A stretch of DNA of 21,541 nt from a virus, in IMG/VR virus record IMGVR_UViG_3300033064_003828, positions 1 through 21,541 of that record. One strand, written 5' to 3'. The notes beneath the pieces were generated by a model. The model was not told the DNA's origin. It saw nothing but the letters and a program-made list of their open reading frames with translations, and made no database searches. Of this stretch, positions 2,398 through 21,541 are shown piece after piece. Positions within the stretch are counted from its first letter, which is position 1, and each line of letters opens with the position of its first letter. A program made the position numbers and the translations under genes.

Positions 2398-2415
2398 TTC
2401 ATTTATCCTTATTAA

Positions 2416-2487: not shown

Positions 2488-2492
2488 AAGAG

Positions 2493-2615: not shown

Positions 2616-2709
2616 ATTATAGGGTAACATGGCACTCTTGCTGAGCTGATATGTCAGTATATACCACTCATGAATGTCTCAACTAACTACCACAGTTACC
2701 GAGAAAATA

Positions 2710-2740
2710 CCCAACCGTAATCAGGTATCCCCTGAGTTGG
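2710..2740. repeat. Bulged hairpin
   Basis: CCAAC (2711-2715) pairs with GTTGG (2736-2740) and TCAGG (2721-2725) pairs with CCTGA (2731-2735), coaxial except for a 5-base bulge on one side. The loop is TATCC. Confidence 0.5.
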
Positions 2741-2768
2741 TTACTCTCACTGCTACCCTAATAAACAA

Positions 2769-2795
2769 TGTAACTGTAGGCTTACAGGTGTTACA
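2769..2795. repeat. Bulged hairpin with tetraloop-size loop
   Basis: TGTAAC (2769-2774) pairs with GTTACA (2790-2795) and TGTA (2775-2778) with TACA (2783-2786). The loop is GGCT and there is a 3-base bulge (2787-2789). It is the second of two adjacent hairpins in the gene-free stretch. Confidence 0.5.
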
Positions 2796-2877
2796 ACTTT
2801 GTCTCTTGCTTTACCACGCTACAGATTTACACACTGCTTTAAGTATTGGTATATTCAAACTTGTTATTTAAAGGAAA

Positions 2878-3096
2878 TTAATCTATTCTTTTAATTGAGA
2901 ATATTTGGAAGTCATTATTAATACATGGTGGAGATTCATGAAGGGAGAACCTCTGAAGAAGCTGTGCTTGTATCAATATCAAAGCTGAAAATATATCAGT
3001 TTGACGAACCTCAATGGTTTCCTTCCAAGCCTTTATAGTTTTCTTATCTTGAGTTCCCGCCTTACTACCAAATATACATCTATAAGTATTGAACAT
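2878..3096 (-). CDS. Hypothetical small phage protein, 72 residues
   Basis: The start is well supported: AGAAAGGAAAG lies 7-8 bases before the ATG. The protein begins MFNTYRCIFGSKAGTQDKK, has a basic stretch, then IEVRQTDIFSALILIQAQLLQRF, a probable strand-plus-helix, and a polar tail with a PPC motif. There is no membrane segment long enough to call, no signal peptide and no recognised family. It follows the 87-residue gene by 60 bases and would be the second gene of the leftward unit. Its stop is followed by the gene-free structured stretch. Confidence 0.7.
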   Translation of the reverse strand: MFNTYRCIFGSKAGTQDKKTIKAWKETIEVRQTDIFSALILIQAQLLQRFSLHESPPCINNDFQIFSIKRID

Positions 3097-3156
3097 AATT
3101 ACTTTCCTTTCTATTCTATTCTATTTCAACCAAAAAGGGGCGTTAGCCCCTTGCTA

Positions 3157-3420
3157 CTACTTACCTGGTTGCGTTGCGAAGATGTCATCTCTGGTGAGAG
3201 CTGGAGCTGCCTCGATGAGTTTGAGTTCGTTGAGTGCTTCGTCTCTGAGTTCTTTGAGCTTTTCCTTTTCAACAATGGCCTTGTAAGCCTCTTTGTTGTT
3301 GGAGAAAAAGACAGCTACAACACCTGGCTTGAACTCTGTAGTGTAGACATTCTGGTCTGTGCGGGTGGTAAGTGAGTTGCCTTGGTCGTCTTTGGTAGTA
3401 ATAGGCCATTTAATGTGCAT
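3157..3420 (-). CDS. Hypothetical small phage protein, 87 residues; first gene of the leftward unit
   Basis: Has a strong ribosome binding site (AAGGAGT, 7 bases before the ATG). The N-terminal half looks like a small beta domain (HIKWPITTKDDQGNSLTT, then FKPGVVAVFFSNNKEAYKA) and the C-terminal half is a charged helix (VEKEKLKELRDEALNELKLIE). It resembles small cytoplasmic phage proteins, but I cannot name a family. Codon choice is somewhat richer in G and C at third positions than in the genes to its left. As the first gene after the divergent control region it is probably transcribed early or strongly; that is inference from position. Confidence 0.8.
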   Translation of the reverse strand: MHIKWPITTKDDQGNSLTTRTDQNVYTTEFKPGVVAVFFSNNKEAYKAIVEKEKLKELRDEALNELKLIEAAPALTRDDIFATQPGK

Positions 3421-3755: not shown

Positions 3756-3800
3756 AGAGTGTTAAATGAGTCTTAATTAATTAATAAAGTGAGAATAAAA

Positions 3801-4076
3801 ATGAGTGAGAATAGTAGTGGCCAAAAAGAGCAGAAGCATCAAATTATTATTAGTAAAATTGTTTCCCTTGAGGCGACAATTAACAGACTTGAGCACTTTG
3901 TTAGAGAAGTTCAAGGTAATATTCAACCAGCTACAAATCCCAAAGTACCGGTAAATAAATCATTGCTTACCATTATGCCTTTATCTGAATTTCTAAGTCA
4001 AGCGCCTGACAGAATAATTAAAATGGATGTAAGCTTATCTGAAATATTATCCAGCTTAAAAGAATCACTGTTTTAA
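3801..4076 (+). CDS. Small coiled-coil protein, first gene of the rightward unit
   Basis: I choose the ATG at 3801 (91 residues) over an in-frame GTG at 3789, because GTGAG sits seven bases before the ATG while only an AT run precedes the GTG. Residues about 12-42 (HQIIISKIVSLEATINRLEH and on) show spaced hydrophobic positions typical of a short coiled coil. A Pro-rich linker (PATNPKVP) and a second helical region follow. A structural or adaptor role is possible, but the family is not recognised. It is followed after two bases by the next gene. Confidence 0.75.
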   Translation: MSENSSGQKEQKHQIIISKIVSLEATINRLEHFVREVQGNIQPATNPKVPVNKSLLTIMPLSEFLSQAPDRIIKMDVSLSEILSSLKESLF

Positions 4077-4078
4077 TA

Positions 4079-4321
4079 ATGAAACTATTTAGATGTGATG
4101 TTTGTGGGAGAGATGTTACAAATGAGAGTCAATTAGAAATTGTTAATGTTGGAGCTTTAGATACTGAAACACTTTTAATGAGAACCAATTATGAAATGTG
4201 TAAATCGTGCTTTGATAAGTATTTCTTCCTAAGAGCTGAGATGACTAAGCCTTTACGAATTGAATTTAGGCAAATATATGCTGAAGCTATGTTAAACTTG
4301 CTTGAGAATCAAGGTGAATAA
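4079..4321 (+). CDS. Small zinc-ribbon-like protein, 80 residues
   Basis: Begins MKLFRCDVCGRDVTN, giving a CxxC pair at residues 6-9. A second pair, CKSC, lies near residues 41-44, followed by FDKYF. Two CxxC pairs about 30 residues apart are the pattern of a zinc ribbon or treble clef, and many small phage proteins carry it. The remainder is helical. There is no strong ribosome binding site; the start lies two bases after the previous stop, so translation is probably coupled. Its stop overlaps the start of the PGDYG-type gene. Metal binding is inferred; the partner is unknown. Confidence 0.8.
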   Translation: MKLFRCDVCGRDVTNESQLEIVNVGALDTETLLMRTNYEMCKSCFDKYFFLRAEMTKPLRIEFRQIYAEAMLNLLENQGE

Positions 4322-4574
4322 TAAGTATCGCAAGAAACCAGTTATAATTGAAGCTATACAGTGGACTAAAGAAACAATGCCTGAGGTTATGAAGTTCACT
4401 AAGGAATTAGGTGAGAAACGCTTAATAAATATTGATGATACAATGTTAGTAATAAGAACTTTAGAAGGTGACATTGTTGCTAAGCCTGGTGATTACATTA
4501 TTAAAGGAATCAAGGGTGAATTTTATCCTTGTAGAGCAGACATATTTAAGCTAACTTATGAAGAAGTGAAATAA
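4314..4574 (+). CDS. PGDYG-type phage protein
   Basis: I prefer the GTG at 4314 as start (86 residues; an in-frame TTG at 4302 would add four), since family members as I remember them begin just before the KYRKKPV motif. The sequence has KYRKKPVIIEAIQW at 4-17, then a variable middle, VIRTLEGDIVAKPGDYIIKG at 47-65 and GEFYPCRADIFKLTYEEV at the end. This arrangement (KKPVxxEAxQW ... PGDYxIxGxxGEFYPCxxDIFxxTY) is a widespread small phage family whose PGDY core gave the domain its name. Its biochemical role is unknown. It overlaps the upstream gene by 8 bases. Confidence 0.85.
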   Translation: MNNKYRKKPVIIEAIQWTKETMPEVMKFTKELGEKRLINIDDTMLVIRTLEGDIVAKPGDYIIKGIKGEFYPCRADIFKLTYEEVK

Positions 4575-4593
4575 TTTACAAGGTGATATTATA

Positions 4594-4710
4594 ATGGCTA
4601 CAACAAAAGTGAGAAAGTGGATTGCTCTTCCAATTGGATTATTTGTTACTTTCCTATGTGAATTATGGATTGGAAGCAACTGGTCATATAGATACTTAAG
4701 GAAAAGATAA
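4594..4710 (+). CDS. Tiny single-pass membrane protein, 38 residues
   Basis: A short frame with a good ribosome binding site (AAGGTG, 8 bases before the ATG) that ends in TAATG overlap with the next gene. The product has a basic N-terminus (MATTKVRKW), a hydrophobic segment at about 10-27 (IALPIGLFVTFLCELWI) and a basic tail (YRYLRKR). The basic residues at both ends do not fix the topology. The coupling and ribosome site argue that it is real despite its length. Function unknown; small phage membrane peptides include lysis and exclusion factors. Confidence 0.65.
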   Translation: MATTKVRKWIALPIGLFVTFLCELWIGSNWSYRYLRKR

Positions 4711-4907
4711 TGGCTACAATTACAGTTACAGACGTACAATTATATAGCCTCAAGAAAACTCATGGGAACATCTTTAAAAACATTGAAAATAGGTGGGAAG
4801 TGATTGTTGGCATTTTAACCTTAAATTTGGGTAAAATTAAAATAGTGGAAGCTACAAGAGTTAAAGAGCTATTTAAAACAAAAGTTGAATATGAGGTGGA
4901 ACAGTAA
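4710..4907 (+). CDS. Hypothetical phage protein, 65 residues
   Basis: The ATG shares its A with the preceding TAA stop, and AAGGAAAAG lies 5-6 bases upstream. The product MATITVTDVQLYSLKKTHGN... is lysine-rich with alternating hydrophobic residues (VIVGILTLNLGKIKIVEATRV), suggesting a small beta-rich fold. Its own stop overlaps the next start as TAATG. No family recognised. The tight coupling on both sides shows that it belongs to the same translational unit. Confidence 0.75.
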   Translation: MATITVTDVQLYSLKKTHGNIFKNIENRWEVIVGILTLNLGKIKIVEATRVKELFKTKVEYEVEQ

Positions 4908-5383
4908 TGGTTACAATGAAAAAGAAATGGATGCAAAACGATGACACTTCTATTGAGAGGCTTGAACCTTGGGAGTTGGCATTTGAACTTAATAGACTGG
5001 AGATTTCCAGAGGTGGTAAAAATTTAATGACTACTGAAGAAGCTAAAGAATTAATGGATGAGAATCCTGAGGTCGGGCTAAGATTTGGCCCACAATATCA
5101 ACCTGAAACTCACTTTATATATAAACTTGATGAACCTGAACACGAAATGCCTGAAATGCATGCTTTCGTTGGCGTTGACCCTGCAAGTAAACCTATTGAA
5201 GAAATTAAGAAGAAAGCATTTAAAGGAACCCTCACAGCGGTGCTTGCTGCAGTGAAATCAGTGAAAGCAAGGTTTCCAATTATTAAAATAGTAACCGGTT
5301 TTGTTGAAGATTCAGATGATAAGGAAAGCAGATTGGCTCGCAAATCAGAAGCAGGAGAACCAGAAACTGTTGCTAAAGACTAA
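4907..5383 (+). CDS. Hypothetical phage protein, 158 residues
   Basis: Starts in a TAATG overlap with AGGTGG just upstream. The N-terminal 65 residues are charged and helical (LEPWELAFELNRLEISRGG, then TTEEAKELMDENPEVGLRFGP). A middle segment HEMPEMHAFVGVDPASKPIEEIKKKAFKGTLTAV could be a small alpha/beta domain. The last 30 residues are highly charged and probably disordered. VGVDPAS recalls the acidic strand of nuclease folds, but no second or third catalytic motif is present, so I do not call it a nuclease. It is the last gene before the hairpin at 5389-5412. Confidence 0.8.
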   Translation: MVTMKKKWMQNDDTSIERLEPWELAFELNRLEISRGGKNLMTTEEAKELMDENPEVGLRFGPQYQPETHFIYKLDEPEHEMPEMHAFVGVDPASKPIEEIKKKAFKGTLTAVLAAVKSVKARFPIIKIVTGFVEDSDDKESRLARKSEAGEPETVAKD

Positions 5384-5388
5384 CAATG

Positions 5389-5412
5389 TGAGGGCAGCTT
5401 TGGTTGCCCTCA
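5389..5412 (+). repeat. Intergenic hairpin, 8 bp stem, no U-tract
   Basis: TGAGGGCA (5389-5396) pairs with TGCCCTCA (5405-5412) around an 8-base loop. It lies six bases after a stop codon. The following bases (TTATCAT) contain no run of T, so it is not a canonical intrinsic terminator. It may pause RNA polymerase, protect a 3' end or be a processing site. Confidence 0.55.
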
Positions 5413-5444
5413 TTATCATACAACTTAATTAAGGAGACATGGAA

Positions 5445-6068
5445 ATGTCTAAACCAGTACTAATACTATACAACCCTTCAACTATGGCAGGTAAGGCTGC
5501 TGCCTCTATTGTAAGGTACTTTAACTCTGAACGTAGATTACAGTGGCGTGAAATTGAGAAAATAGCTGATGTACCATTTGGCCTAATAGAAAGTGGTAAC
5601 TTTCAAGTATACCTTATTGGGGTTGCCTTTAAAAAGGAAAGAATGGAAAAGCTAAATGAAATGACTGACTTGTTTTGGATTGATAATAGGGAAAAACTTG
5701 AGATACCTGAAATTTCAGGCTTGCGGAATGAGAGAAACTTGATGCAATTATGCTGGCAATACTTTCAGGCTGACCACCCGAATCAGGGCATTAGAAATTC
5801 TCCATTGCCTGAAGGTTATAATTTAATTTACTTGAAGGAATTATATGAAAGTACTGATAAGATTCCATCCAGTGACAATGCTATACCATTTAATTATGGA
5901 TTACTGAAATATGACCCTGATATGCTACAACCAGACAGTCATATGTGGTATAAAATAATTACAAGGGATGCCAGTTTTATGGCAAAAACTGTTACTGATG
6001 GTTATATAATAATGCAGTACCTTGTCGCTGAAGGTAAAAGACGTGGCGGACATCAGGATAAATCTTAA
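5445..6068 (+). CDS. Degenerate DHH-phosphoesterase-like protein
   Basis: I prefer the second ATG (5445) because AAGGAG is about 8 bases before it but only 2 before the ATG at 5439. The 207-residue product has the architecture of short phage DHH-family proteins: an N-terminal strand and helix (KPVLILYNPSTMAGKAAASI), a strand with following helix (VYLIGVAFKKERMEKLNEM), then a LFWIDNREK motif near 77-84, then RNLMQLCWQYF. In active relatives these places carry a D-G pair, an Asp, and DHH(K), and a W-Y/F motif follows. Here the metal-binding residues are replaced: GK for DG, G for the strand Asp and DNR (80-82) for DHH. If related, it would be a catalytically dead version. The homology is judged by pattern only. 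Confidence 0.5.
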   Translation: MSKPVLILYNPSTMAGKAAASIVRYFNSERRLQWREIEKIADVPFGLIESGNFQVYLIGVAFKKERMEKLNEMTDLFWIDNREKLEIPEISGLRNERNLMQLCWQYFQADHPNQGIRNSPLPEGYNLIYLKELYESTDKIPSSDNAIPFNYGLLKYDPDMLQPDSHMWYKIITRDASFMAKTVTDGYIIMQYLVAEGKRRGGHQDKS

Positions 6069-6225
6069 ATCAAGGTGCTGTAATAGAATAGTGAAACCAT
6101 CTTCAGAGATTAAAAAAGTCAATAGTGAATATAGAGGTATATGCCCTTTGTGTAGGTGCTATACTGAATTTTTGTTTGTGACAAAACTTACAGAGGAACT
6201 AGAATGCCTATTGATGAAAAGATGA
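6043..6225 (+). CDS. Small zinc-ribbon-like protein, about 60 residues
   Basis: The frame is open from a TTG at 6022, but the GTG at 6043 has AAGGT eight bases upstream and gives a product of normal small zinc-ribbon size. It contains KSRCCNRIVKP (Cys pair near residues 12-13) and YRGICPLCRCY (CPLC near 34-37), the pattern of Com-like or zinc-ribbon phage proteins that start with a CxxC-type knuckle and end with CPxC. It overlaps the previous gene by 26 bases and the next by 22, so it is compressed between two frames. The exact start is uncertain. Function unknown. Confidence 0.55.
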   Translation: MADIRINLKSRCCNRIVKPSSEIKKVNSEYRGICPLCRCYTEFLFVTKLTEELECLLMKR

Positions 6226-6515
6226 CAGAATTAAGTGGACTTACACCTGAGGAACAAGCGAAAGTTCTGAAGAAAATGGCAGAGGGTAAAGGTACTGGTT
6301 ACATTGTTTTGCCATTAGACATGGGCGGTGAGCTGATTTCGGTAGATGATAGGGTTGTTATGCTTGTACAACGTCTTTCTTTTGAAATAGAAAAGCTTGA
6401 AGGAAGATTGACTAAGAAGCAATTTGTTGATAAGACTATGAAAGTGTCTCCTGTTGCTGTTTGTGAAGTAGCAAAGGGTGTACAGAAGTTAGTTGATGAA
6501 GTTTCAAACGATTAG
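6204..6515 (+). CDS. Hypothetical phage protein, 103 residues, upstream of terminase
   Basis: AGAGGAAC lies 6-7 bases before the ATG. The protein has an N-terminal helix with a TPEEQAKVLKKMAEG motif, a short beta stretch (GYIVLPLDMGGELISVDDRVVML) and a long C-terminal helix (VQRLSFEIEKLEGRLTKKQ and on). It overlaps the start of the small terminase gene by 20 bases. Its position directly in front of the packaging genes makes a DNA-packaging or head-assembly accessory role possible, but nothing in the sequence shows one. Confidence 0.75.
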   Translation: MPIDEKMTELSGLTPEEQAKVLKKMAEGKGTGYIVLPLDMGGELISVDDRVVMLVQRLSFEIEKLEGRLTKKQFVDKTMKVSPVAVCEVAKGVQKLVDEVSND

Positions 6516-7374
6516 GAAAGTTCCACATTATGTTTTTGAGTCTCTTGATGAGATGAAAGAACATTATGCTGTTAAAGGTGAACTTATGCCTGAAATAGTT
6601 GATAACTGGCGTAAAGCAGAAGTATTTGATTGGGTCAGGTCTGATGATAACTGTTATGTGCAAGTACTGAAAGTTGACCGTACAATGAGACACCCTGATG
6701 AGAGTGAAACTTTTAAACCACATGAAGGCTATTTGAGAACTATAGTTGGTTCATTTATCATAAGAGACAAGAATCTTATGGATACTGATTTTGACATTCA
6801 TCCAAGCAGGTATTCATTTGCGAAGAAGTTTACATCAGCTGTGCATGGAATTGATGGAAGGCTTGGTGGGATTAGGCGGAAAACAGTAATAACCAAGCGT
6901 GAAAAAGCATTTGCGTTTATGGTATTCTATGGAGATAATTTAGACCCAGCAGATGTATATATGAAAATTTTCCGCACTAAGAGCTATGAATATGCTAAGA
7001 AGTATTCCATAGCATTGTTATCACAAAGGAGAATTATGCAAGTAATGAAAGATGAAATAGCTGAGGCAGCTGATAAACTTGGGGTTGATCATGAATTTGT
7101 TATACGTGGATTTCGTGATTTGTATACAAATGCTGAAGTTGACCCTGCTGTTAAGAGACTTGCTCTTAAAGACCTTGGAACAATTATAAAGACATACCCA
7201 CAAACTCAAGGCAAATATATGTTACCACCTGGTGCAAATCAGCACTACCTTCCTGGTGGAACTACTGAAGCTGACTTTCATGACCTTGAACCACCACAAC
7301 TTGGGGCTGGTGATGATGATATTGCTTCTACTCTTGATAGACCTTCAACTCCACAGGCTGATGTAAATTTGTAA
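6496..7374 (+). CDS. terS: Terminase small subunit (probable)
   Basis: A 292-residue protein directly upstream of the large terminase gene. The ATG at 6496 is chosen over the in-frame TTG at 6493; the ribosome site is weak and coupling to the overlapping upstream gene is likely. Residues about 132-190 (TKREKAFAFMVFYGDNLDPADVYMKIF, then AKKYSIALLSQRRIMQVM) have the shape of the terminase small-subunit helix-turn-helix. Residues 198-235 (DHEFVIRGFRDLY ... KRLALKDLGTIIKTY) match the oligomerisation helices often seen after it. The first 110 residues are an extra alpha/beta domain not usual in small terminases, and the last 50 are Pro/Gly/Asp-rich and probably disordered. It would recognise the packaging site and hand DNA to TerL. 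The assignment rests on pattern and context. Confidence 0.75.
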   Translation: MKFQTIRKVPHYVFESLDEMKEHYAVKGELMPEIVDNWRKAEVFDWVRSDDNCYVQVLKVDRTMRHPDESETFKPHEGYLRTIVGSFIIRDKNLMDTDFDIHPSRYSFAKKFTSAVHGIDGRLGGIRRKTVITKREKAFAFMVFYGDNLDPADVYMKIFRTKSYEYAKKYSIALLSQRRIMQVMKDEIAEAADKLGVDHEFVIRGFRDLYTNAEVDPAVKRLALKDLGTIIKTYPQTQGKYMLPPGANQHYLPGGTTEADFHDLEPPQLGAGDDDIASTLDRPSTPQADVNL

Positions 7375-7375
7375 T

Positions 7376-9142
7376 ATGTCTCAACGTGTTGAAATGTTTA
7401 ACATTATGAAGGTCATGCCTAGCCAGCATGAAAAAATTCTATGGAAAACATTTAATGATAACATGGCTTTTGGTAAGGTGTTTCTCACTGGTGATTTTTG
7501 TAAGTCTGAAACTCCAATATTTCATTATGAATTATCAGATGCTTTACATGCAAAGTCGATTAAACCTCTTGCTATAATTGTTCCAAGGGAGACTGCTAAG
7601 TCGACGTATGTAAGGGCTAAAGTTATAAGAGATTTTTGCTTTGCTAAGAAAGCTGAGGAATGGGGTTGGGCGAAGGAACGAGAGCATTTATTCTTTGGTT
7701 GGTGTGCTGATAATCAAAAGAAGTCTATAAGAAATGTTGGTTCTATACGTTTTCATCTGATTAATAATCCCAAATTAATATATTTTTTTGGTAGAGATGG
7801 TTTGCTTAGAGGGAAAATTTGGAACCAAGAGGAAATAACTACTATATATGGTGATAGATTACTGTCAAGCTCAAACTTAACTTCTATGCGTGGGGATAGC
7901 ACTGAAACATTAGAGGAAGGTGCTATAAGGTATAGTAATGTATTTGCTGATGACTTTGAAAATGAGAAGAATACTATTACTGATTTGAGTAGGGATAGAA
8001 TTAAGGATAATATTTTTAATGGTATTCAGCCTGCAGTTATTAAAAATGTACCTGGTAAATATATGTGTATCATTGGAACCCCAGTTCACTTTGATTCACT
8101 TATTCAAAATTTGTTAGATAAATGGGCTTTAGCTGTAAAAGAGGCTGGTGGTTCTGACTCTCTTAGATGGACAAGAGACCCTGTAGAATTAGCTGCAAGA
8201 AAAAAGGCTGCTGATGGTTTTGCTTGGAGAGTGATAGCTTATCGTTCTACACAACCAGAATTGGATGGTGGAGTATTATGGTCAAGTTATAGACCAAGAG
8301 TTGTTCTTGATCAGATTAAAGGAGTTTATAAAGTTCGTGATATTCGTGGTATAGCTGGTTATCATCAGGAATATGAACTTGAGGTTCAGTCTACTGCTAC
8401 CGCTACTTGGACAAGGGCACATATTAAATATCATGATGGGCGTTATCTACATAAGGATGGTTTCAATTATATTGTTATAAATAAGCAGATGATTCCTATT
8501 AATGTATTCATTGGTGTAGACCCTGCTACTGATATTGATACAAAGGATACAGATTTCTCAGTTTTATGTGTTATTGGTGTATCTGCTGCTATGGATTATT
8601 ATGTACTTGAGTATGTACGTGAGAGAAATATACCAACAATGGCTGCCAGAGACCCTTCTGGTGAAATAATTGATAAGAAAGGTGTAGTTGATCATTTAAT
8701 AGACTTATACCTTAAATACCATGCTGATTCTGCAACAGTTGAAGATGTTGCTATGAATAGAAGTGTATTCACTGATTTAAATGTTGAGAGAGTTAGGCGC
8801 AAGTGTGATGATATTGGTGTCATACCCGCTCCCCCGGGTGGGCAGCACAAACGCACACGCATATATTCTGGTATCAACGTAATATTTGCAAACGGTTCAT
8901 TTTACTGTTTGACTGAACACTATGCTTTAATAGATGAGATTATTAAATTTGGCCCGCGAATGGCACATGATGATACTATTGAGGCTTTTTACTATGCAAC
9001 AAAGAACGCATATGCTCCCGATGTTGGTGATAGTGTAGCAAGTACCCCGGACAAGAAGAATAGTATAATAGATGGATTTAACTGGCGTGCTGGTGTAACA
9101 CAACTTACTGGATGCAGGGATATACGAGAAAAGTACTGGTAA
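7376..9142 (+). CDS. terL: Terminase large subunit (ATPase-nuclease packaging motor)
   Basis: A 588-residue protein, normal length for TerL. The ATPase domain has a Walker A variant PRETAKST at 70-77, Walker B VFADDFEN at 189-196 with the DD/E pair, SMRGD at 170-174, and a coupling-type motif IIGTP near 232-236. The RNase-H-like nuclease domain has its three acidic motifs: GVDPATD (Asp 382), ATVEDVA (Glu 456) and HDDTIEAF (Asp 532 or 533). All key residues are present, so it should both pump and cut concatemeric DNA. It starts one base after the small subunit's stop. A locally GC-rich patch (about 8820-8862, encoding PAPPGGQHKRTR) stands out against its AT-rich surroundings. Confidence 0.95.
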   Translation: MSQRVEMFNIMKVMPSQHEKILWKTFNDNMAFGKVFLTGDFCKSETPIFHYELSDALHAKSIKPLAIIVPRETAKSTYVRAKVIRDFCFAKKAEEWGWAKEREHLFFGWCADNQKKSIRNVGSIRFHLINNPKLIYFFGRDGLLRGKIWNQEEITTIYGDRLLSSSNLTSMRGDSTETLEEGAIRYSNVFADDFENEKNTITDLSRDRIKDNIFNGIQPAVIKNVPGKYMCIIGTPVHFDSLIQNLLDKWALAVKEAGGSDSLRWTRDPVELAARKKAADGFAWRVIAYRSTQPELDGGVLWSSYRPRVVLDQIKGVYKVRDIRGIAGYHQEYELEVQSTATATWTRAHIKYHDGRYLHKDGFNYIVINKQMIPINVFIGVDPATDIDTKDTDFSVLCVIGVSAAMDYYVLEYVRERNIPTMAARDPSGEIIDKKGVVDHLIDLYLKYHADSATVEDVAMNRSVFTDLNVERVRRKCDDIGVIPAPPGGQHKRTRIYSGINVIFANGSFYCLTEHYALIDEIIKFGPRMAHDDTIEAFYYATKNAYAPDVGDSVASTPDKKNSIIDGFNWRAGVTQLTGCRDIREKYW

Positions 9143-11459: not shown

Positions 11460-12311
11460 ATGTTAGACGTCGAAAAAACAGAGCAACAGAAAGCAGAAGA
11501 AAAAGAACCTAAGATTGGTGTTGATACGCTCACTGATGACCAGAGAGTAGAACAAGCCAATCAAGTTTTTAATTCCCCTGATGAGTTTACTCCAGAGGAA
11601 CTTTTATCTATGCGTACTCCAAGCTCTGAACCGTCCCCAGGTATTAACACGCCAGGTAGCGAAGTAGATGATATTCCATCAAGCAAGCGAGGCATGGATT
11701 CCAGCATTGAATTGGACAGACTGCAGAAACAGCTTGCTGAAATCAAACCGTTTCTTCCTGTTATTAATCAAATGCGTAATGATTCAGGTCTTGTTGATAC
11801 TGTTCGTACATACTTAAAGAGTGGTGGTGAACCGCCTAAGAGTGTTATTGAGCAGTTTAAACTTGATAAAGAGTTTGTATTTGATATGGATGATGCGGTG
11901 AAGAATCCTGATTCTGATTCTGCCAAAGTATTCCAACACATGATTAACGCATCTGCAAGGTCAATGATGACCAGTGGACTTAAAGAGTTTCAACAAGTTC
12001 AAGATGCTGAACATGAGGAAGTGGAATTGAGGGAGAAGCATAAGCTTTCTGATAAAGATTTTGCTGATTTCATGCGGTATGCTGATGAGAATACATTGAC
12101 GTTGGAAGACATTTACACTTTGAGGAACTTACGTCAAAGAGATTCCAATATCCAATCGTCCGCCAGGCGTGATGTAATCGACCAAATGAACCGGGCTAAA
12201 GCTAATGACAGAACTGCCCTTCCGGGTGGTAATGCTGGTTTTGACCCGAATGATGATGATCAGGTGTTTGATTTGATATTTAAGCAGAGAACGGAAAGTC
12301 TCTTTGGCTAA
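11460..12311 (+). CDS. Scaffold-like head assembly protein
   Basis: Start at the ATG 11460 with AGGAG eight bases upstream; an in-frame GTG at 11427 has none. The 283-residue protein is very acidic, begins MLDVEKTEQQKAEEKEPK, has a long disordered Ser/Pro/Glu-rich stretch (about 40-80), then helices (SSIELDRLQKQLAEIKPFLPVI and DAEHEEVELREKHKLSDKDFADFM) and a short basic segment before a C-terminal FDLIFKQRTESLFG. Acidic, helical and low-complexity composition, together with its position between portal and major capsid genes, is the usual signature of a scaffold. Scaffolds are poorly conserved, so context carries most of the weight. No protease motif is visible, so it is not an obvious protease-scaffold fusion. 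Confidence 0.75.
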   Translation: MLDVEKTEQQKAEEKEPKIGVDTLTDDQRVEQANQVFNSPDEFTPEELLSMRTPSSEPSPGINTPGSEVDDIPSSKRGMDSSIELDRLQKQLAEIKPFLPVINQMRNDSGLVDTVRTYLKSGGEPPKSVIEQFKLDKEFVFDMDDAVKNPDSDSAKVFQHMINASARSMMTSGLKEFQQVQDAEHEEVELREKHKLSDKDFADFMRYADENTLTLEDIYTLRNLRQRDSNIQSSARRDVIDQMNRAKANDRTALPGGNAGFDPNDDDQVFDLIFKQRTESLFG

Positions 12312-12335: not shown

Positions 12336-14015
12336 ATGCCTGACAATTATGGGGGCATTAATCGTCCCTACGGCGATACTCCGCATACTTTAGACCATCC
12401 CGCAACTTCCCTAAATGTAGCTGATGATAATGCTACATTGTCAACGGGGAATCTTCGGCGAAAGTATAATTTTGGAAAAAGTTATACGAAGTTATCGTTC
12501 CAGCGCGACCCGTTTATCCATATCCTCAATACCTACAGACGGAAACCAACAGACGACCCCAAATGGAAATATACCATGAAACGAAAGACCACCGTTTTCA
12601 AACGGTTTGGTTATGTGGTTGGCTGTTCCGGCGTAGGTGAGAAGGTAACTGGTGATGTTACAATAACCAGTGCATCTTCAGCTTGGGGAACTACACCATA
12701 CTTAGCATTCCTTGCTAGTACGATTGAAGGAAATGCTAATATGTTTGCAACGAATAGCGTACCAACAACTTTAAATCAAGAATGTGCAATAGCTTTAATG
12801 GGTGATTATGCTGCTGCTAAGGGTAATAAGGTTAATGTAATTGATGCTTATGGCTCAACAAAAACTTATACTCTTGGTGACTTATATACGAAACCCAAGC
12901 ATTTCCTGACAAACCAAATCATACGAATTAATACTGCTGCAGCCATTGCTACTGATGCTAATGGTGGAACGCTTGCTGGTTATGTACTTGCTCGTATTAC
13001 TGGAGTATATGACTTATCAATTTATGCAACAGGAACCACCACCGTAATTGGTGAGGGTAAAATTCTTAATGTTAAGATGATTCGTGTTGATTCAACGAAT
13101 AAATATCCAGTTAGTTATGGTTGTACAACTACTTGGAGTCAAACTGATGCTTTGCTGTTTAATGTTTATCATGGTGTTGGCAGTAATAGTTTAGCTCAAC
13201 GCTTAGAACCGGCTCGTTCCTATGTGGCTGGTAATGCGCATCATGAGTTATCTGGTTACGGTCAGACCTATAGACCACAACCATTTTCCACTGAATATGG
13301 TTATAATCAAATATTCAAGGAAACAGCAATGATGTCTAACCGTGCCCGTGCTACTGTACTGAAGTTTGAGGCAAACCCTTGGGCTGAGGAGTGGGAAGAC
13401 AAATTCCTTGAGATGACTTATGACATTGCTCAAGCAGGTTACTTTGGTGACCAGTATGAAGATGATGATGGTATTACATATACACAGGGTTGGGTTGATT
13501 GGGCTTTAGACAATGCAAACCGCTTTGGTCTGACTCTTAGTACTAAAACAGTTGATGATTTCCTTGATGACTACTCAGCGTTTAATGACCCTCGTCATAA
13601 ACCACGTCTTGGTAGCTCAATTGCCTACTTCTGTCGTACAGATGTATGGAACTGGTTACATCAAATGGGTGGATTCCAAAAGAACAGTGCTGAGATTTCA
13701 CCTAATTACCGGATGCAGTGGTCTGGTGAAGGTAAACTTGCAGGTGTTGATTACTCAACATTTAAAGTTTCCGGTGGCACAATGAATGTTGTTCGTGATA
13801 TTCATTTAGATGGCACAGTTGTTAAAATCGCTGCGATTGATATGAATCGTGCATTCATACGTCCTCTAATTGGTAACGGAATTAATCGTGATGTCACAGT
13901 TTATGTTGGCGTCAAGACGATTGAAAACTCCGGTGAGGACTATCGGGTGGACTTAATCCAGGGAGACATTGGCTTTGAATTTGATGCTCCTGAATTACAC
14001 GCCATTTGGCTGTAG
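12336..14015 (+). CDS. Major capsid protein (HK97-fold expected)
   Basis: The strongest ribosome site of the window, AAAGGAGG, lies 8 bases before the ATG. The 559-residue protein follows the scaffold gene, has no signal or membrane segments, and is beta-rich with the long middle helix region FKETAMMSNRARATVLKFEANPWAEEWEDKF typical of a capsid spine helix. Its C-terminal third (DFLDDYSAFNDPRHKPRLGSSIAYFCRTDVWNW onward, then NVVRDIHLDGTVVKIAAIDM) resembles the peripheral and axial domains of large phage capsid proteins. A 559-residue size is large and suggests an inserted domain. Codons in the first 110 positions are distinctly richer in G and C than those of the following 200, so it may be mosaic. 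Fold assignment is inference from order, size and pattern. Confidence 0.85.
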   Translation: MPDNYGGINRPYGDTPHTLDHPATSLNVADDNATLSTGNLRRKYNFGKSYTKLSFQRDPFIHILNTYRRKPTDDPKWKYTMKRKTTVFKRFGYVVGCSGVGEKVTGDVTITSASSAWGTTPYLAFLASTIEGNANMFATNSVPTTLNQECAIALMGDYAAAKGNKVNVIDAYGSTKTYTLGDLYTKPKHFLTNQIIRINTAAAIATDANGGTLAGYVLARITGVYDLSIYATGTTTVIGEGKILNVKMIRVDSTNKYPVSYGCTTTWSQTDALLFNVYHGVGSNSLAQRLEPARSYVAGNAHHELSGYGQTYRPQPFSTEYGYNQIFKETAMMSNRARATVLKFEANPWAEEWEDKFLEMTYDIAQAGYFGDQYEDDDGITYTQGWVDWALDNANRFGLTLSTKTVDDFLDDYSAFNDPRHKPRLGSSIAYFCRTDVWNWLHQMGGFQKNSAEISPNYRMQWSGEGKLAGVDYSTFKVSGGTMNVVRDIHLDGTVVKIAAIDMNRAFIRPLIGNGINRDVTVYVGVKTIENSGEDYRVDLIQGDIGFEFDAPELHAIWL

Positions 14016-15317: not shown

Positions 15318-15692
15318 ATGGCTGAGCAGATTCACATTCAGACTCGTCTGAGGTACACCCCAGCTAATATCAATGAGGTTGGGTTTGATACTGACTGGCT
15401 TGAAATATTTAAAACTATGACTGGTGCTGATGTCCAGTTCTTTACTCAGGTTATAGGCGATGCTAAGGAAGCTATTGAGATTGCTACTGATATTGGGACT
15501 CAGGGTCAGTTTCTTATTATTAATACCAGTACAACCTCAGGTGATGATGTAACTCTTGGTTCAACTACAGATGAAGCAGTTATGTTATTGAAACCAAAGG
15601 GTTGGTGTCTTTTCCAGGCTAACGCAGCTATGTATGCAAAGGCTGCTTCTGGTAAAACCGTTAAACTACAAATTTTCTGTTTTGAGTTATAA
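15318..15692 (+). CDS. Small virion-like protein, 124 residues
   Basis: Start at ATG 15318 with GGAGG five bases before; an upstream in-frame TTG at 15282 falls inside the hairpin and is rejected. The protein begins MAEQIHIQTRLRYTPANINE, has a short helix-turn motif (WLEIFKTMTGADVQFFTQV) and a beta-rich second half with GQFLIINTSTTSGDDVTLGS and KGWCLFQANAAMYAKAASG. This second half, with a nearly repeated order of short hydrophobic strands, is like phage head-fibre or tail-adaptor beta domains. Family not recognised. Its stop TAA and the next start overlap as TAATG. Confidence 0.65.
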   Translation: MAEQIHIQTRLRYTPANINEVGFDTDWLEIFKTMTGADVQFFTQVIGDAKEAIEIATDIGTQGQFLIINTSTTSGDDVTLGSTTDEAVMLLKPKGWCLFQANAAMYAKAASGKTVKLQIFCFEL

Positions 15693-15970
15693 TGGTAGTT
15701 GAAGAATTATATACAAGTGTAAAGCGTGTATTCCCTGATGTAACAATAGCTGATTGCGTCAGACTTGTTAATGAAGCTTTGCAAAGTGAATCAAGTGAAA
15801 TAACTGATATTCATAATGTACTATTTATTGATGTTGTTGCTAATCAAAGGTATTACAGACTTCCTGATCATGTTAATTCTGTTGAAACAGTTTGGTTTAT
15901 GGATTCTGAAGGTGAGTATCGGAGAATCAGCAGACTTGTTGGTGTAATAGATACTACGGATGAAACATAA
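15692..15970 (+). CDS. Neck adaptor-like protein, N-terminal half
   Basis: A 92-residue protein whose ATG shares the A of the previous stop. It opens with a helical part (LYTSVKRVFPDVTIADCVRLVNEALQ), then a strand set (NVLFIDVVANQRYYRLPDHVNSVETVWFMDSEGEYRRISRLVG). The order helix-rich NEAL segment, YYxLPxxVxxVxxV strand, and a YRRIxR motif is what the first half of podovirus head-tail adaptor proteins looks like. It ends in the middle of what would be a domain, and the next gene seems to continue it. The adaptor binds the portal and opens the neck to the tail. Assignment by pattern and position. Confidence 0.55.
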   Translation: MVVEELYTSVKRVFPDVTIADCVRLVNEALQSESSEITDIHNVLFIDVVANQRYYRLPDHVNSVETVWFMDSEGEYRRISRLVGVIDTTDET

Positions 15971-16386
15971 TGGCTAGCACATATTCCTATCCAAACGCTG
16001 AAGTATTTTGGCGAATTGAACGTGATAAATTAGAACTTGTTACAATTGATGCTGTTGATGTTGACAATAGTTATGAGTCCATTGATGAATCAGTTGCTCA
16101 GGGGGTTATGATTGAATATGATGGCCCACCAACATTACTTAATGTACATGACAAGAAAATTCATAAACATGAGTTACCATTAAGACCTAAAGCTCATACA
16201 GCATTAAAACATTATGTGCTTCAAGCACTTTATGAACAGAAACAGGATAAAAGTGAGCTTGATATTGTAATGATGAGAAATCATAATATGAAGTGGCTAA
16301 GGGGAATAGCTGCTGTAGATGGTGGTAAAATAACTATTAAGGATACTCCTATTGCTATTCCAAGGTATCCATTTAGGGTTACATAA
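15970..16386 (+). CDS. Neck adaptor-like protein, C-terminal half
   Basis: The ATG overlaps the stop of the previous gene (TAATG). The 138-residue product begins with SYPNAEVFWRIERDKLELVTI, a strand pattern that would follow naturally after the YRRISRLVG segment of the previous gene, then GVMIEYDGPPTLL, and a helix-rich ending (LRPKAHTALKHYVLQALYEQKQDKSE, then MRNHNMKWLRGIAAV). In single-gene adaptors this half carries the WYxxxG strand, an IxYxxxP motif and C-terminal helices. I see no slippery sequence at the junction, so two polypeptides made by coupled translation are more likely than a frameshift product. Ends in a TAATG overlap with the next gene. Confidence 0.55.
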   Translation: MASTYSYPNAEVFWRIERDKLELVTIDAVDVDNSYESIDESVAQGVMIEYDGPPTLLNVHDKKIHKHELPLRPKAHTALKHYVLQALYEQKQDKSELDIVMMRNHNMKWLRGIAAVDGGKITIKDTPIAIPRYPFRVT

Positions 16387-18362
16387 TGGCGGGGTTACAA
16401 AACTTAGACCAACAAGCACTTGATTTGGCAGGTGTGGCTGAATCTGGCTATCTTGGTATAAGTCAGGAAATAATTGATGACCTATTTACGCATGGGCTTA
16501 AAAAGGTTGTTGTAGATGTGGATGCTCTTAACCCACTTAGAACTGAGTTATTTTGTGCTGCTCCAACTTCTTTAACTGATGCTAATGGTAAAACATTTTC
16601 TGCATTGACTTCTGATATTATTGTAGGTGTTACAAGAAGTGATGGAGTTAGGACTCATCCATGTAGAAAGGTATCTCCACTTTTTAGTGGTGAAGTTGAA
16701 AATCCAGGAAGTCTTAATTTTGCTACTGTGAGAGACCCTGTGTATTTCGTTAAAAGTAGGGCTGTTTATATTAAACCAGACCCGACAAGTGATGAAGCGG
16801 CTTCTATTTATCATCCTGGTTTTATCTTTATTGATGCTTCTGCACAAGGAACATTAGATGCCTATACTGGAATTTCATTTCCAGAGGAACTTGATAGGGC
16901 TGTAATAATTTATGTAGTTATTGGCTTTAGGCACAGGGAATTATTATACTCACGAAGTCAGTCTAATGATGAGCTAACATCGGTAGGTACAGCTTTGACT
17001 AATTTTGGTAGTGCTTTACCTACTTTTGTTGCTGTTGTTGGTGTTACTTTTCCAACATTAACACTTGTATCAATGACTTCGCTTCCAACACTTACTCTTT
17101 CAAGTGCTACTGATACTTTTCCAATTATTCCAGTTAGGGCAACTTTACCAACATTATCAATTTCTGATACATTGACACTGCCAGCTGATTTAGTTCTTCC
17201 GTCTCTTAGTTTGACTACTGCTCCAACTTTTTCTGGGCTAACCTTACCCACAGTTCCAGTTCCTGCTATTTCTTATACGTCTGCTGGTGTTGAGCCTGAG
17301 GATACTATTACTATAACTCAGTCAATTCCAACATTTAATGAACCAATCCCATTTACTTTTAATACGACTAGAATTAATGATGCTACAACCAAAGCTCAGA
17401 CTATGATTGATTCTGATACTGTTAATTTTGAGACTGAAATAGCTGCTGATAATATTGGAGTTGTTAATTCTGTTATTAGTGCTGCTGGTCAAGAGGTTAG
17501 AAGGGCTGTTACTGAGGTTCAATCTCAAGGTGGGCAATTACAGGAGTATCAAGCAAATATCCAAAAGGTACTTGGTAAATTTAATGCTGAAATAAATGAT
17601 TATCAGGTTGAGGTTCAAAAAGAAGTTCAAGCAGCAGCAGTTGATGTTAATGCTTATGCTGCCAAAGTTAGTGATAATAAAGTTGCAATGGATGCCACTA
17701 TTGCTGATTTTCAAGCTGAAATATCTAAGTATCAAGTTAATACAAATGCTATAGTTCAGGAGTGGCTTGCTGAAGAAGTTCAGTTTAAATTAGCTAAGTG
17801 GGCAAAGCAGGTTAGTAATGAGATTGCTGAGTATTCAGCCAGTGCTACAACTATTATACAGCAATATTCTGGATTATCAAGTGCAAAAACATCTGAATAT
17901 ATTGCTAAGGTTGATAAGGTAATTAAAGAATATTCAGCTAAGGTTCAAGCGGTTATACAGGATTATTCTAATAGTATAGCTGCGTATTCAGCTCAAATTC
18001 AAGGTTATATAGGTGAATTAAATGCTCTTAGAACATCTGAAATAGGTGAATATCAGACAAAAGCCGGTGCATTTATTTCGGAATATTCAGCAAAGAATAA
18101 TTCTCTCATAGGTGAGTATTCAACTAAAATTCAAGCATTGATTAGTGATTACTCTGCTCGTATTAATAGTGAGGTTGGAAGATTTCAATCAAATTTAGCA
18201 AAGGCTGGTGCTTATTTACAAGAAGCCCAGGTGAGATTAGTAAAGTCTCAAGACCATAATAGTAGAAGCACATTGGCATTGGCTGATATAAGTGCTTTTA
18301 CATCTGAGTACAATGGCATGATAATGGCATTTGCTCAAGTGAAAGGAAGTATTGATGGCTAA
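16386..18362 (+). CDS. Long virion fibre or needle-type protein with Pro-Thr-Leu repeats and 11-residue coiled coil
   Basis: A 658-residue protein starting in a TAATG overlap. Three parts are visible. Residues 1-205 form an N-terminal domain with a helix-rich FPEELDRAVIIYVVIGFRHRELLYS ending that looks like an anchoring domain of neck or tail proteins. Residues about 206-305 contain repeated LPTLTL- and FPTLTL-like motifs (at least five) in a beta-rich Thr/Ser/Pro stretch. Residues about 387-620 are a coiled coil with strict 11-residue periodicity (units such as EYSAKVQAVIQ, EYSTKIQALIS and DYSARINSEVG). Undecad repeats make right-handed coiled coils and long straight stalks. Position after the neck genes suggests an extended neck or tail appendage. 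Exact role unknown. Confidence 0.75.
   Translation: MAGLQNLDQQALDLAGVAESGYLGISQEIIDDLFTHGLKKVVVDVDALNPLRTELFCAAPTSLTDANGKTFSALTSDIIVGVTRSDGVRTHPCRKVSPLFSGEVENPGSLNFATVRDPVYFVKSRAVYIKPDPTSDEAASIYHPGFIFIDASAQGTLDAYTGISFPEELDRAVIIYVVIGFRHRELLYSRSQSNDELTSVGTALTNFGSALPTFVAVVGVTFPTLTLVSMTSLPTLTLSSATDTFPIIPVRATLPTLSISDTLTLPADLVLPSLSLTTAPTFSGLTLPTVPVPAISYTSAGVEPEDTITITQSIPTFNEPIPFTFNTTRINDATTKAQTMIDSDTVNFETEIAADNIGVVNSVISAAGQEVRRAVTEVQSQGGQLQEYQANIQKVLGKFNAEINDYQVEVQKEVQAAAVDVNAYAAKVSDNKVAMDATIADFQAEISKYQVNTNAIVQEWLAEEVQFKLAKWAKQVSNEIAEYSASATTIIQQYSGLSSAKTSEYIAKVDKVIKEYSAKVQAVIQDYSNSIAAYSAQIQGYIGELNALRTSEIGEYQTKAGAFISEYSAKNNSLIGEYSTKIQALISDYSARINSEVGRFQSNLAKAGAYLQEAQVRLVKSQDHNSRSTLALADISAFTSEYNGMIMAFAQVKGSIDG
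17544..18245 (+). repeat. 33-base-period coding repeat (undecad coiled coil)
   Basis: Codes for about 21 consecutive 11-residue units beginning with (E/D)Y, (E/D)F or a related pair, with 7-residue spacers at least twice (QVSNEIA and LRTSEIG) that reset the phase. The DNA is diverged from unit to unit but keeps GAGTATTCAGC-like blocks (for example near 17829, 17929 and 18079). The repeat is imperfect at DNA level and mostly conserved at protein level, so selection on the coiled coil is the simple reading. Confidence 0.7.
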
Positions 18363-18846
18363 TGAAATTTTAATTGCATCATCTTTAACTCCAATAAATG
18401 ATGCTGGAACTGCGGGTGATTATACAAATAGAAAAATTGATGCTAATGCCTTGAGGTCATTTGGTGGTAAGTATAATACTTTAACAGCTTATACTGATGC
18501 TGGTATTGCTCGATGGAGTGGCGTAGTTGTTGTGAGTACTATTACTTATGATGGATTTAATGATAGTGGCTGGACTGAGGCTGCTGCTGTTACCGATGGT
18601 GCTATTCCAACTAATGTTTTTGCTGTTGCCATTGAATTTATTGGTAAAATTGGTGCTACTAATTATATTTATTTAGCGTTGTATAAGACTGGAGAAGAAA
18701 TCGTTATGGCTAAATTAGCATTGGGAGAAGGGATTTCTATCCCAATTCAAGAAGGTCTTGCTATTACTGACGTGAGAATTAAAGCAGAGGCTTATTCAAA
18801 TGGTGTGAATGAGGCAACTGTTAATGTTCTTATTTTAGGAACTTAA
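18355..18846 (+). CDS. Beta-rich virion protein, 163 residues
   Basis: Start at ATG 18355 with AAAGGA seven bases before; an in-frame TTG at 18352 is less likely. It overlaps the coiled-coil gene by 8 bases. The sequence is dominated by short strands with Thr/Asn/Gly turns (ITYDGFNDSGWTEAAAVTDG, then VFAVAIEFIGKIGATNYIYLALYKTGEE) and ends EATVNVLILGT. It could form a trimeric fibre subunit or an assembly partner of the coiled-coil stalk. No known catalytic motif. The three small genes at 18355-19572 share this composition and sit together between two fibre-like genes. Confidence 0.65.
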   Translation: MANEILIASSLTPINDAGTAGDYTNRKIDANALRSFGGKYNTLTAYTDAGIARWSGVVVVSTITYDGFNDSGWTEAAAVTDGAIPTNVFAVAIEFIGKIGATNYIYLALYKTGEEIVMAKLALGEGISIPIQEGLAITDVRIKAEAYSNGVNEATVNVLILGT

Positions 18847-18859
18847 AGAGGAAAATATT

Positions 18860-19210
18860 ATGGCTAAACTAACTGGAGTTAATGAACGAGAAGCAGCTGC
18901 AATGCAAGTTATGCAGGAACATACTGTAACTACACCACTTGCACCAACTGATTCTGCTGAAAAGAGAATCGCAGTATCTTGGCCAAGTCCAAAGGTATAT
19001 GTTGATAGTGATTCAGATTTATACTATGCTTGGTCTTTGACTAATGCTGATACTGTTAATTCTTCAAATAACTTGAGAGTGTATGGTGATGTTCATACAC
19101 CACTTGATGTTCCTTGGGGAATGCTTGGCCGTGTTGTTGGTTCAACTATTTATTTATGTTTATTGAAGGTTGACCCTGGTACTGCTGAAGCAAGAGTGGC
19201 CTTGTCATAA
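18860..19210 (+). CDS. Beta-rich virion protein, 116 residues
   Basis: AGAGGAAAA lies 6 bases before the ATG. After a helical N-terminus (NEREAAAMQVMQEHTVTTPL) the protein has WPSPKVYVDSDSDLYYAWSLTN and then VPWGMLGRVVGSTIYLCLLKVDPGTAEARVALS. The late segment GSTIYLCLLKVDPG resembles NYIYLALYKTGE in the previous gene, so the two may be distant relatives. Ends in a TAATG overlap with the next gene. No recognised family; position suggests an appendage component. Confidence 0.65.
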   Translation: MAKLTGVNEREAAAMQVMQEHTVTTPLAPTDSAEKRIAVSWPSPKVYVDSDSDLYYAWSLTNADTVNSSNNLRVYGDVHTPLDVPWGMLGRVVGSTIYLCLLKVDPGTAEARVALS

Positions 19211-19572
19211 TGTCAATACCATACCCAATAGCTAAACCACCCTTTTTAAAGGGTAAAATTGCTACAGCCGGTGCTACTGCAACGATTATTAAATCAATAG
19301 CAATTCCAACAAATGAAATCAAACAAATTGATGTTCATGCTACTGCTTATAAGGCTGATGGTGTACAGTTAGCTTCCTTTAACACTGTCAGAAGTGCTAA
19401 GAATGTAAGTGGAACTGTTACACTTCAAGGAGCACCAATTCATAAATATAGGTTGAGAAGTAAAAAGACTCTTGCTATAACCTTTGTTGTTAATAGTACC
19501 AGTATTGATGTTAAGGTTACTGGACTTGCAGCAACTGCTCTTACTTGGAAAGTTAAAATACTGGTGACTTAA
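19210..19572 (+). CDS. Beta-rich virion protein, 120 residues
   Basis: Starts in a TAATG overlap. The product begins MSIPYPIAKPPFLKGKIATAG and is a series of Val/Ile/Thr-rich strands (TATIIKSIAIPTNEIKQIDVH, then KTLAITFVVNSTSIDVKVTGL), consistent with an immunoglobulin-like or small jelly-roll fold. Ig-like domains are frequent in phage surface proteins and help in weak binding to cell surfaces. That fold is a guess from composition and strand spacing. It lies one base before the fibre gene, so it is likely co-translated with it. Confidence 0.65.
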   Translation: MSIPYPIAKPPFLKGKIATAGATATIIKSIAIPTNEIKQIDVHATAYKADGVQLASFNTVRSAKNVSGTVTLQGAPIHKYRLRSKKTLAITFVVNSTSIDVKVTGLAATALTWKVKILVT

Positions 19573-19573
19573 T

Positions 19574-21541
19574 ATGAAAAAAATATTACTTACTTTAATG
19601 GTTTTGTTCTCTTTTGTCTTTGGGCAAGTTGAGGCTGGATGGGATTTATTCCCAACATATTCTAACTTTGGAGTGCCAGACACTTTGTTTGCTGGTAGTG
19701 GACTTGTTGTTACAGGGCTATCAACAGTTGACTCCATTGATGTTCTCAATTGGGTTAAAACTGACAGTATTTGGAGTGCTGGGGCAATGGAGATAACCTC
19801 AGTTGGACAGTTGAATTTATTGACAAGTGCTGGAAATGCTGATATTGTATTATATCCTCATGGTACTGGCGCTGTAAGGATTGACGGGAACCCAGTATTG
19901 GCTACCAATGACGATTTATTGACAATAGCCGCAGATTATAATGCTAATGGGGCTGGTGTAATATCCTTTACGACTACTGGTTCTGAGAAATTAAATCTTG
20001 GTGCTACTGCTGATGGGTTAGTTTATGTAAAAGGTGGAGCAGGTGGTGTCCGTCTTGACAACACAGTCGGGATAGGAGTTGCGCCAAATGCTGATACTTT
20101 CCTTTATATAAGTGGAACTGTTACTGGTACTGCAAATTCAAAAGGTATTATTAATACTGGCACTGTAGCTACAAATAATCCCACTGCAACAATTTATGGG
20201 CATTATTTTGCACCTACTCTAAATCTAACAGATGGAACAGCGGGAACAAAAATTGATGCCGCTGGAACTTTTCTTATAGCTCCTTCTGGAACAGTAACAT
20301 CTGGAACACTAACTACGGCAAGTACACTTAAAATAAGCGGTGCGCCATCCATAGGAGCAACTAATTACGCTTTAAACGTAACTGCTGGAAATAGTTTGTT
20401 CGGTGGCGCACTATTCGCACAGGATGTAACAGTAAGCGGTGGTAATGTCAATGTTGGAGTTGATGATACTCGATTTGGAATACTTACATTATATGGACAC
20501 GTTACACCTTCTACTGTTGGTGGTATTGTCCAATTACATACCGCTGCTGATTATGATGGCACTTATGAATATTATCGGCTTAAAGCTAATGAAGATGATT
20601 TCTGGATACAAAGAAATGGTGTTGTAACTCCTGATTTTAAAGTAGAAAGCAGTGGCAATATCACCTTATTTGCCGGTATAGCTGGAATTGATTACACCCT
20701 TACTTTTCATGGTGAGACTAATGATGGTATAATAACTTACATGGAGGACGAGGATAGGTTTGATTTTGATAATGATGTCGATGTAGTCGGTGCGTTAACG
20801 GCTGATACTGTTGAGGTGGCTGATTATCTCCGTATTGCTGATGATAGCTTTTTATATTTCGGTGATGATAAAGATTTCAGCATGGAATACGATGAGGACG
20901 GTAACGACCTCATGATATTCGATGGTGCTAATATTAACTATTCTGGACAGTACGGATTAAACGACCAGACCGCTACCAATATGCAAGCAGGTGAAGCGGT
21001 GTGGAGGTTTGATGGGGTGAATGACTATATTTCTCTACCATCAGGTGTTTATCAGGCATTTTCCAACCTCTCTGATTTTACTATTGTTGTTGATATATAT
21101 TATGATGGACATACCCCAGACGGTACAAGTGAGTCAATCATTGGTTTTATTGATAATGCGGGATTAAATCGTCCTCAAATTGCATTGTTGTTTTCTAACC
21201 CTACAGCTAAAATTTCATTTACTATAAGGCAAACTGCGGATGCCACATCAAGTACAATTCTGTCGGCAAATGCTATTACCGCTGGCTGGCATAAAATAGT
21301 AGCAATACAGACTGGTGGATCAAGTCCATCTCTTGAACTTTATCTTGATGGGATTTCAGAAGGTACAGATGCTACGAATCCATTAACTTATGTTGGGACG
21401 GATTTTGATGTAGGTAATGTTGGGGCTTTTGACCCAGCTGGGGCAAGTGTTGACCTTTATTATGATGGTGGGGTAGATAAGGTAAAACTCTACAACCGCG
21501 CCCTCTCCGCCGCCGAAGTATTAAACCTCTCCGCACCTACA
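19574..21541 (+). CDS. Large fibre-like protein with signal peptide and LamG-like domain, C-terminus cut by window edge
   Basis: An open frame of 656 codons running off the end. It starts one base after the preceding stop, with no strong ribosome site. Residues 1-21 form a clear Sec-type signal peptide: MKK, a hydrophobic core ILLTLMVLFSFVF, and VEA before the likely cleavage site. Residues about 30-470 form a Gly/Thr/Asn-rich beta repeat region (motifs such as GTVTGTANSKGI, LNVTAGNSLFGGAL and YLRIADDSFLYFGDDKDFS) typical of fibre beta-helices. Residues about 476-656 form a LamG/concanavalin-like domain (WRFDGVNDYISLPSG, then AGWHKIVAIQTGG, LELYLDG and KVKLYNRALSAAEV). Codons become GC-rich in the last 54 bases (about 59% G+C by my count). 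A receptor-binding appendage is the best reading; the signal peptide is unusual for a virion protein. Confidence 0.85.
   Translation, partial: MKKILLTLMVLFSFVFGQVEAGWDLFPTYSNFGVPDTLFAGSGLVVTGLSTVDSIDVLNWVKTDSIWSAGAMEITSVGQLNLLTSAGNADIVLYPHGTGAVRIDGNPVLATNDDLLTIAADYNANGAGVISFTTTGSEKLNLGATADGLVYVKGGAGGVRLDNTVGIGVAPNADTFLYISGTVTGTANSKGIINTGTVATNNPTATIYGHYFAPTLNLTDGTAGTKIDAAGTFLIAPSGTVTSGTLTTASTLKISGAPSIGATNYALNVTAGNSLFGGALFAQDVTVSGGNVNVGVDDTRFGILTLYGHVTPSTVGGIVQLHTAADYDGTYEYYRLKANEDDFWIQRNGVVTPDFKVESSGNITLFAGIAGIDYTLTFHGETNDGIITYMEDEDRFDFDNDVDVVGALTADTVEVADYLRIADDSFLYFGDDKDFSMEYDEDGNDLMIFDGANINYSGQYGLNDQTATNMQAGEAVWRFDGVNDYISLPSGVYQAFSNLSDFTIVVDIYYDGHTPDGTSESIIGFIDNAGLNRPQIALLFSNPTAKISFTIRQTADATSSTILSANAITAGWHKIVAIQTGGSSPSLELYLDGISEGTDATNPLTYVGTDFDVGNVGAFDPAGASVDLYYDGGVDKVKLYNRALSAAEVLNLSAPT

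Follow-up and report, generated by a model that had tools for sequence, protein, structure and literature searches.

A predicted Sec signal on a phage fibre gene and a possible route to the virion from outside the cytoplasm

The window, the whole 21,541-base IMG/VR record analysed here with its 34 genes, ends in a gene for a fibre-like protein that opens with a predicted Sec signal peptide. The reading favoured on balance is that this protein is a Sec-exported receptor-binding (side) fibre of a short-tailed phage, which would be joined to virions outside the cytoplasm. Confidence in the parts of this reading differs, as a matter of judgement rather than computation: from the sequence, the signal is almost certainly real and export of the protein is very probable, and membership of the virion in its own phage is fairly probable. 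Because signal-bearing fibre and spike proteins of cultured Cellulophaga phages have been recorded in virions by MS/MS, some tailed phages probably, by analogy with those records, export the fibres that bind the host before joining them to the particle. No published account of signal-bearing virion fibres, or of such an assembly route, was found in the literature searched.

The fibre gene, its setting and its signal peptide

In order along the plus strand, the window encodes TerL (phrog_38, 7376-9142), a P22-type portal (phrog_156, PF16510, 9157-11406), a scaffold-like gene (11460-12311) and an SU10-type major capsid protein (PF17236, 12336-14015), none of them with a signal. More same-strand genes follow, including three small genes (163, 116 and 120 aa, within 18355-19572, plus strand), likewise without signal, that lie just 5' of the fibre gene, which begins at 19574, immediately past the preceding stop. 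The 116-aa gene has relatives in two other loci (L092 and L093), where they stand behind the same genes. With a P22-type portal, an SU10-type capsid protein and TerL, all genes of the short-tailed type, the window phage is, by predicted gene content, a tailed phage of the podovirus type. The searches run returned no relatives of its capsid protein, and a TerL profile search of genome contigs, directed at a host through a prophage, gave no match. Shine-Dalgarno sites accompany 76% of the window genes versus 9-10% in the Cellulophaga phages phi10:1 (9%) and phi14:2, so that the host is not a typical (Shine-Dalgarno-less) member of the Bacteroidota; a host of that kind was ruled out on this ground despite an FG/Q cleavage-type site in the fibre (slashes mark cleavage sites throughout).

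The fibre gene (19574-21541, plus strand) has an ATG start and is cut at its 3' end by the end of the contig, leaving 656 aa visible. Its body (19637-21010, plus strand) holds a repeat motif, LYFGDDKDFSMEYDEDGNDLMIFDG, near residues 421-462, which is common to ordinary phage fibres, and the fibre repeat 'YFGDDKDFSMEYDEDGND' is common to about 80 phage contigs in IMG/VR. There follows a Laminin_G_3 (ConA-like lectin) domain at residues 480-649 (21011-21520, plus strand), which scores 45 bits (PF13385, E=1.6e-11) against a Pfam gathering cut-off of 27.6 and is nearly complete at the end of the visible residues; residues 478-653 have a PDB relative, 4qvs_A, and AlphaFold gave the C-terminal 192 residues alone a mean pLDDT of only 33. 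The fibre repeats and LamG-like domain named in the first-pass annotation are thus borne out, and the protein combines the two marks of a tail fibre, a body like those of phage fibres and a site beside structural genes. No cytosolic tail-docking domain is recognisable at its N-terminus, which is taken up by the signal (compare the G001 fibre, below). No DGR was seen in the window, where the fibre gene is cut off by the contig end. Close homologues of the protein numbered zero in 50,697 phage records, and IMG/VR yielded three repeat-only relatives.

The predicted Sec-type signal peptide, assigned by a sequence rule, spans residues 1-21 (19574-19636, plus strand). In the N-terminus, MKKILLTLMVLFSFVFGQVEAGWDLFP, K2 and K3 precede a hydrophobic core; written with the mature start it reads MKKILLTLMVLFSFVFG/QVEA/GW, which displays two cleavage-type sites, VFG/QVE (after residue 17) and VEA/GWD (after residue 21). 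There is no Cys at +1, and no further segment of transmembrane hydropathy lies beyond the signal. A positive n-region, a core, small residues at -3 and -1 and the lack of a later transmembrane segment together describe a putative substrate of Sec and signal peptidase I. A mis-called start is an unlikely source of the hydrophobic segment, since the frame is open for only two codons upstream of the ATG and the in-frame ATGs downstream fall at codon 9, inside the core, and then at codon 72. The positive start and hydrophobic core noted at first pass therefore hold, with cleavage-type sites and no good alternative start; the VEA site proposed with them is plausible, but it is one of two.

Signals were called not by SignalP but by a simple rule devised for this analysis, which looks for charge, a 9-residue core and a -3/-1 site. 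Applied throughout, this rule picks out the fibre alone among the 34 window genes, and none of 305 conserved cytosolic virion and packaging genes of the window's TerL family. Its false-positive level is given by the predicted ORFs in the TerL-family loci, where 11 of 1100 were positive, all of 61-112 aa and mostly antisense. Among repeat-bearing fibre ORFs with a visible start, 4 of 75 are positive (the window, L002, L006, which is the contig of L003, and L022). The signal on the window fibre is more than chance.

Fibre modules with and without the signal

The other 71 of those 75 ORFs lack a signal and mostly have ordinary fibre N-termini (for example MAGYSARQS and MADTATTAL). Ordinary fibres with the DFSMEYDEDGND-type repeat, such as those of L010, L014 and L049, share the body motif of the window protein but differ from it in having a cytosolic N-terminal domain and no signal. 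A nearer comparison is offered by the phage G001 (IMGVR_UViG_3300022912_000001, L087/L164), which belongs to the window's TerL family and encodes behind the same structural genes a homologous LamG fibre of about 33% identity; unlike the window protein, it starts MIRQLTNNNAKLSL..., with a cytosolic N-terminus and no signal. In G002 (L165), again of the same TerL family, two consecutive fibre-like proteins do carry signals (218-2392 and 2398-3228 of the reverse complement, reverse strand), downstream of capsid and connector genes; a search for relatives of the G002 signal-bearing fibre returned only itself. Since the G001 fibre lacks a signal and the G002 fibres have one, fibre body and signal are separable. 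The first-pass annotation held that homologues starting downstream of the hydrophobic segment would speak against the signal; 71 of the 75 relatives do start in this way, yet they point to an optional prefix rather than to an artefact.

The prefix character of the signal is clearest in DGR-type fibre modules. L002 holds a complete DGR (3792-6897), with VR at 5419-5536, TR at 5589-5706 and RT at 5707-6897; all 23 TR-to-VR differences fall at A, as in a DGR target, and the target gene opens with a Sec signal. Its relatives form two groups, one signal-bearing and one signal-less. When target and neighbouring module gene were considered together, the two agreed at 16 of 16 loci: both carry a signal in six (L199, L203, L206, L208, L213, L215), neither does in ten (L200, L202, L204, L205, L210, L227, L236, L237, L238, MetMV), and mixed loci number zero. 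The Fisher p for this covariation, 1e-4, is too optimistic and serves as a guide only, the loci being related by descent. In the clearest alignments, the signal-less homologue has its cytosolic start at the cleavage site of the signal-bearing one, as in ANA/YRRKHHRAYG (L203) versus M-AHRRKHFQATG (L204), AFA/DKYALVKDG versus MK-KYALIQKN, and AETAESKTSPP versus MKTIAESKSSPP. In the compared pairs the signal is a clean, removable and optional prefix on fibre modules, present on both genes or on neither.

Portal, capsid or head-tail genes flank the DGR-type modules in L203, L208 and L215. The DGR-diversified modules (L002, L203, L213, L215) resemble the window in being signal-bearing fibre genes in phage contigs and differ from it in having a C-terminal DGR-type variable domain in place of LamG. 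The isolates with relatives of the DGR-target body, MetMV and Bacteroides phage Versailles, lack the signal. In the former (L230, Methanosarcina virus MetMV, an archaeal virus), the target body and a similar small neighbour gene, both without signals, lie at 5911-7839. A MAG labelled uncultured Bacteroidales (L239, 5585-7635) has a signal-bearing target and preceding gene followed by a DGR-RT-like gene, and a near-identical target start occurs in a MAG labelled Geobacteraceae (L240), so that the bin labels conflict. Phage DGR targets have been reported to lack signals, an absence used to support their phage origin (PMC6199706); the signal-bearing DGR loci described here look like exceptions to that pattern.

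Signal-bearing proteins in Cellulophaga virions

Cellulophaga phages from two families, the Assiduviridae (phi10:1, phi19:1, Nekkels_1) and the Pachyviridae (phi18:3, phi13:2, phi19:3), have signals on the genes of their fibre/pectate-lyase module. Across these phages the codons of the signal vary at silent positions and the signal peptide is kept. For phi10:1, phi19:1 and phi18:3, 38 virion proteins identified by MS/MS were checked. Eleven have a signal, all of them in the fibre/spike module (41847-48878 in phi10:1, L175; also L183 in phi19:1 and L188 in phi18:3), and none of the remaining 27 does. The virion assignments are second-hand, from notes in GenBank records, and a secreted protein co-purifying with the virions may be another source of them. 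The first-pass argument that a Sec signal speaks against a virion protein is, in view of these 11, not supported. PHROGs places the pectate-lyase family under moron/host takeover, and NCBIfam detects no T9SS sorting domain on the signal proteins. In phi19:3 (L186) a signal-bearing fibre gene is present in two copies, at 12351-13262 and 15650-16564, with N-termini alike.

A further phage of the same host species, phi4:1, has related bodies in its virions and a fibre module without signals, although one other structural protein, spanin-like, has an N-terminal hydrophobic segment. Export is thus not required to make such bodies, and there seem to be two routes to virions, one signal-bearing and one signal-less. 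The Cellulophaga modules resemble the window in that fibre and spike genes open with Sec signals, with MS/MS records from the virion in three phages; they differ in showing no detected homology to the window fibre, in having several signal-bearing genes in a row and in mostly lacking Shine-Dalgarno sites. Given this last difference, the comparison is one of design, not of descent.

Bacteroidota O-glycosylate exported proteins at D[ST][AILMVT], and the occurrence of this sequon was examined in an exploratory test picked after the data had been seen. Nine signal-bearing Cellulophaga bodies (from L175, L183, L184, L186, L187 and L188; the N-terminal stretch common to them was scored a single time) contain 8 sequons against 23.5 expected, a ratio of 0.34 that none of 3000 shuffles matched or undercut, whereas virion proteins without signal hold 30 against 33.8. 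Most control motifs are not depleted in the signal-bearing bodies, and when nine phage proteins without signals were drawn at random, 1.1% of the draws gave a ratio equally low. The initial idea of an enrichment for O-glycosylation was dropped, the Cellulophaga data showing depletion. The test is neutral in the window fibre and the DGR-type modules, and the G002 fibres go the opposite way, with 12 sequons against 4.5 expected. The scarcity of sequons in the Cellulophaga bodies is consistent with passage through the periplasm and counts as a hint of modest weight.

A possible export route and its alternatives

In the proposed route, the cleavable N-terminal signal would send the window fibre through the host Sec translocon, and the protein would fold outside the cytoplasm, in the periplasm or beyond. 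The likeliest moment for the mature fibre to meet the cytoplasm-built virion would be lysis or shortly before it, when holin and endolysin would let the compartments mix and the fibre could attach. Late addition of fibres is feasible, since in vitro addition to particles works for P22 tailspikes and for T4 fibres. What might be gained is folding of lectin or lyase domains with the help of calcium, the keeping of depolymerases out of the cytoplasm, or a second job for the free fibre protein before lysis. In a wider version, offered tentatively and held to be a little short of even, a whole host-binding module (fibres, spikes, DGR-diversified tips) would be Sec-exported and fitted to virions outside the cytoplasm as a second assembly route, and lineages would switch route through the concerted gain or loss of signal prefixes across all genes of a module.

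The main rival, which is rather unlikely, accepts export and denies virion membership: the protein would be a secreted or surface adhesin or decoy that coats the cell, blocking superinfection or aiding aggregation. Proteins of this kind ordinarily carry Sec signals, some signal-bearing phage proteins met in the survey resemble lipoproteins or membrane proteins, and phage lambda has, between its tail fibre genes, the gene for an exported protein, Lom (PMC12309495). Exported morons of the Lom type match the window in encoding an exported product among tail genes; Lom itself is an outer-membrane barrel with no fibre body (PMC12309495). Against the adhesin stand the place of the window gene directly behind the small genes of the structural region, the record of signal-bearing modules in virions of cultured phages of the same design, and the occurrence of the signal on whole modules rather than on lone accessory genes. 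Of the first-pass proposal of display on or secretion from the infected cell, export survives as the natural reading of a Sec-type signal on a fibre/LamG protein; its non-virion conclusion is not supported, and display or superinfection control is a less likely alternative for the window's own phage.

It is improbable that the hydrophobic N-terminus serves something other than export, as a tail-docking or membrane-touching helix or as tolerated noise. Fibre N-termini usually dock onto the tail, and export is here a prediction from the sequence; however, the segment has the charge, core and cleavage motifs of a signal, other signal-bearing fibres have sites of the SPI type (SAQ, NAQ, AFA, ANA), the starts of their signal-less homologues coincide with the predicted cleavage site, signals also stand on neighbouring genes whose bodies are unrelated, and the Cellulophaga sequon avoidance fits periplasmic passage. 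A virion with an envelope or membrane, into which the signal would direct the fibre, was also suggested at first pass; this has nothing specific in its favour and is highly improbable for a tailed podovirus-type phage with a P22-type portal, an SU10-type capsid protein and TerL, whose fibre shows no transmembrane segment apart from the signal.

In the textbook scheme, every part of a tailed-phage virion is assembled in the cytoplasm. It is easy to class a protein with a signal peptide as non-virion, as in the 'moron' filing by PHROGs and in the treatment of DGR targets (PMC6199706). If Sec-exported fibres of the kind favoured here are a real class, such non-virion calls would be wrong for them; receptor-binding proteins would have been overlooked, and phage assembly would gain a Sec- and lysis-dependent step.
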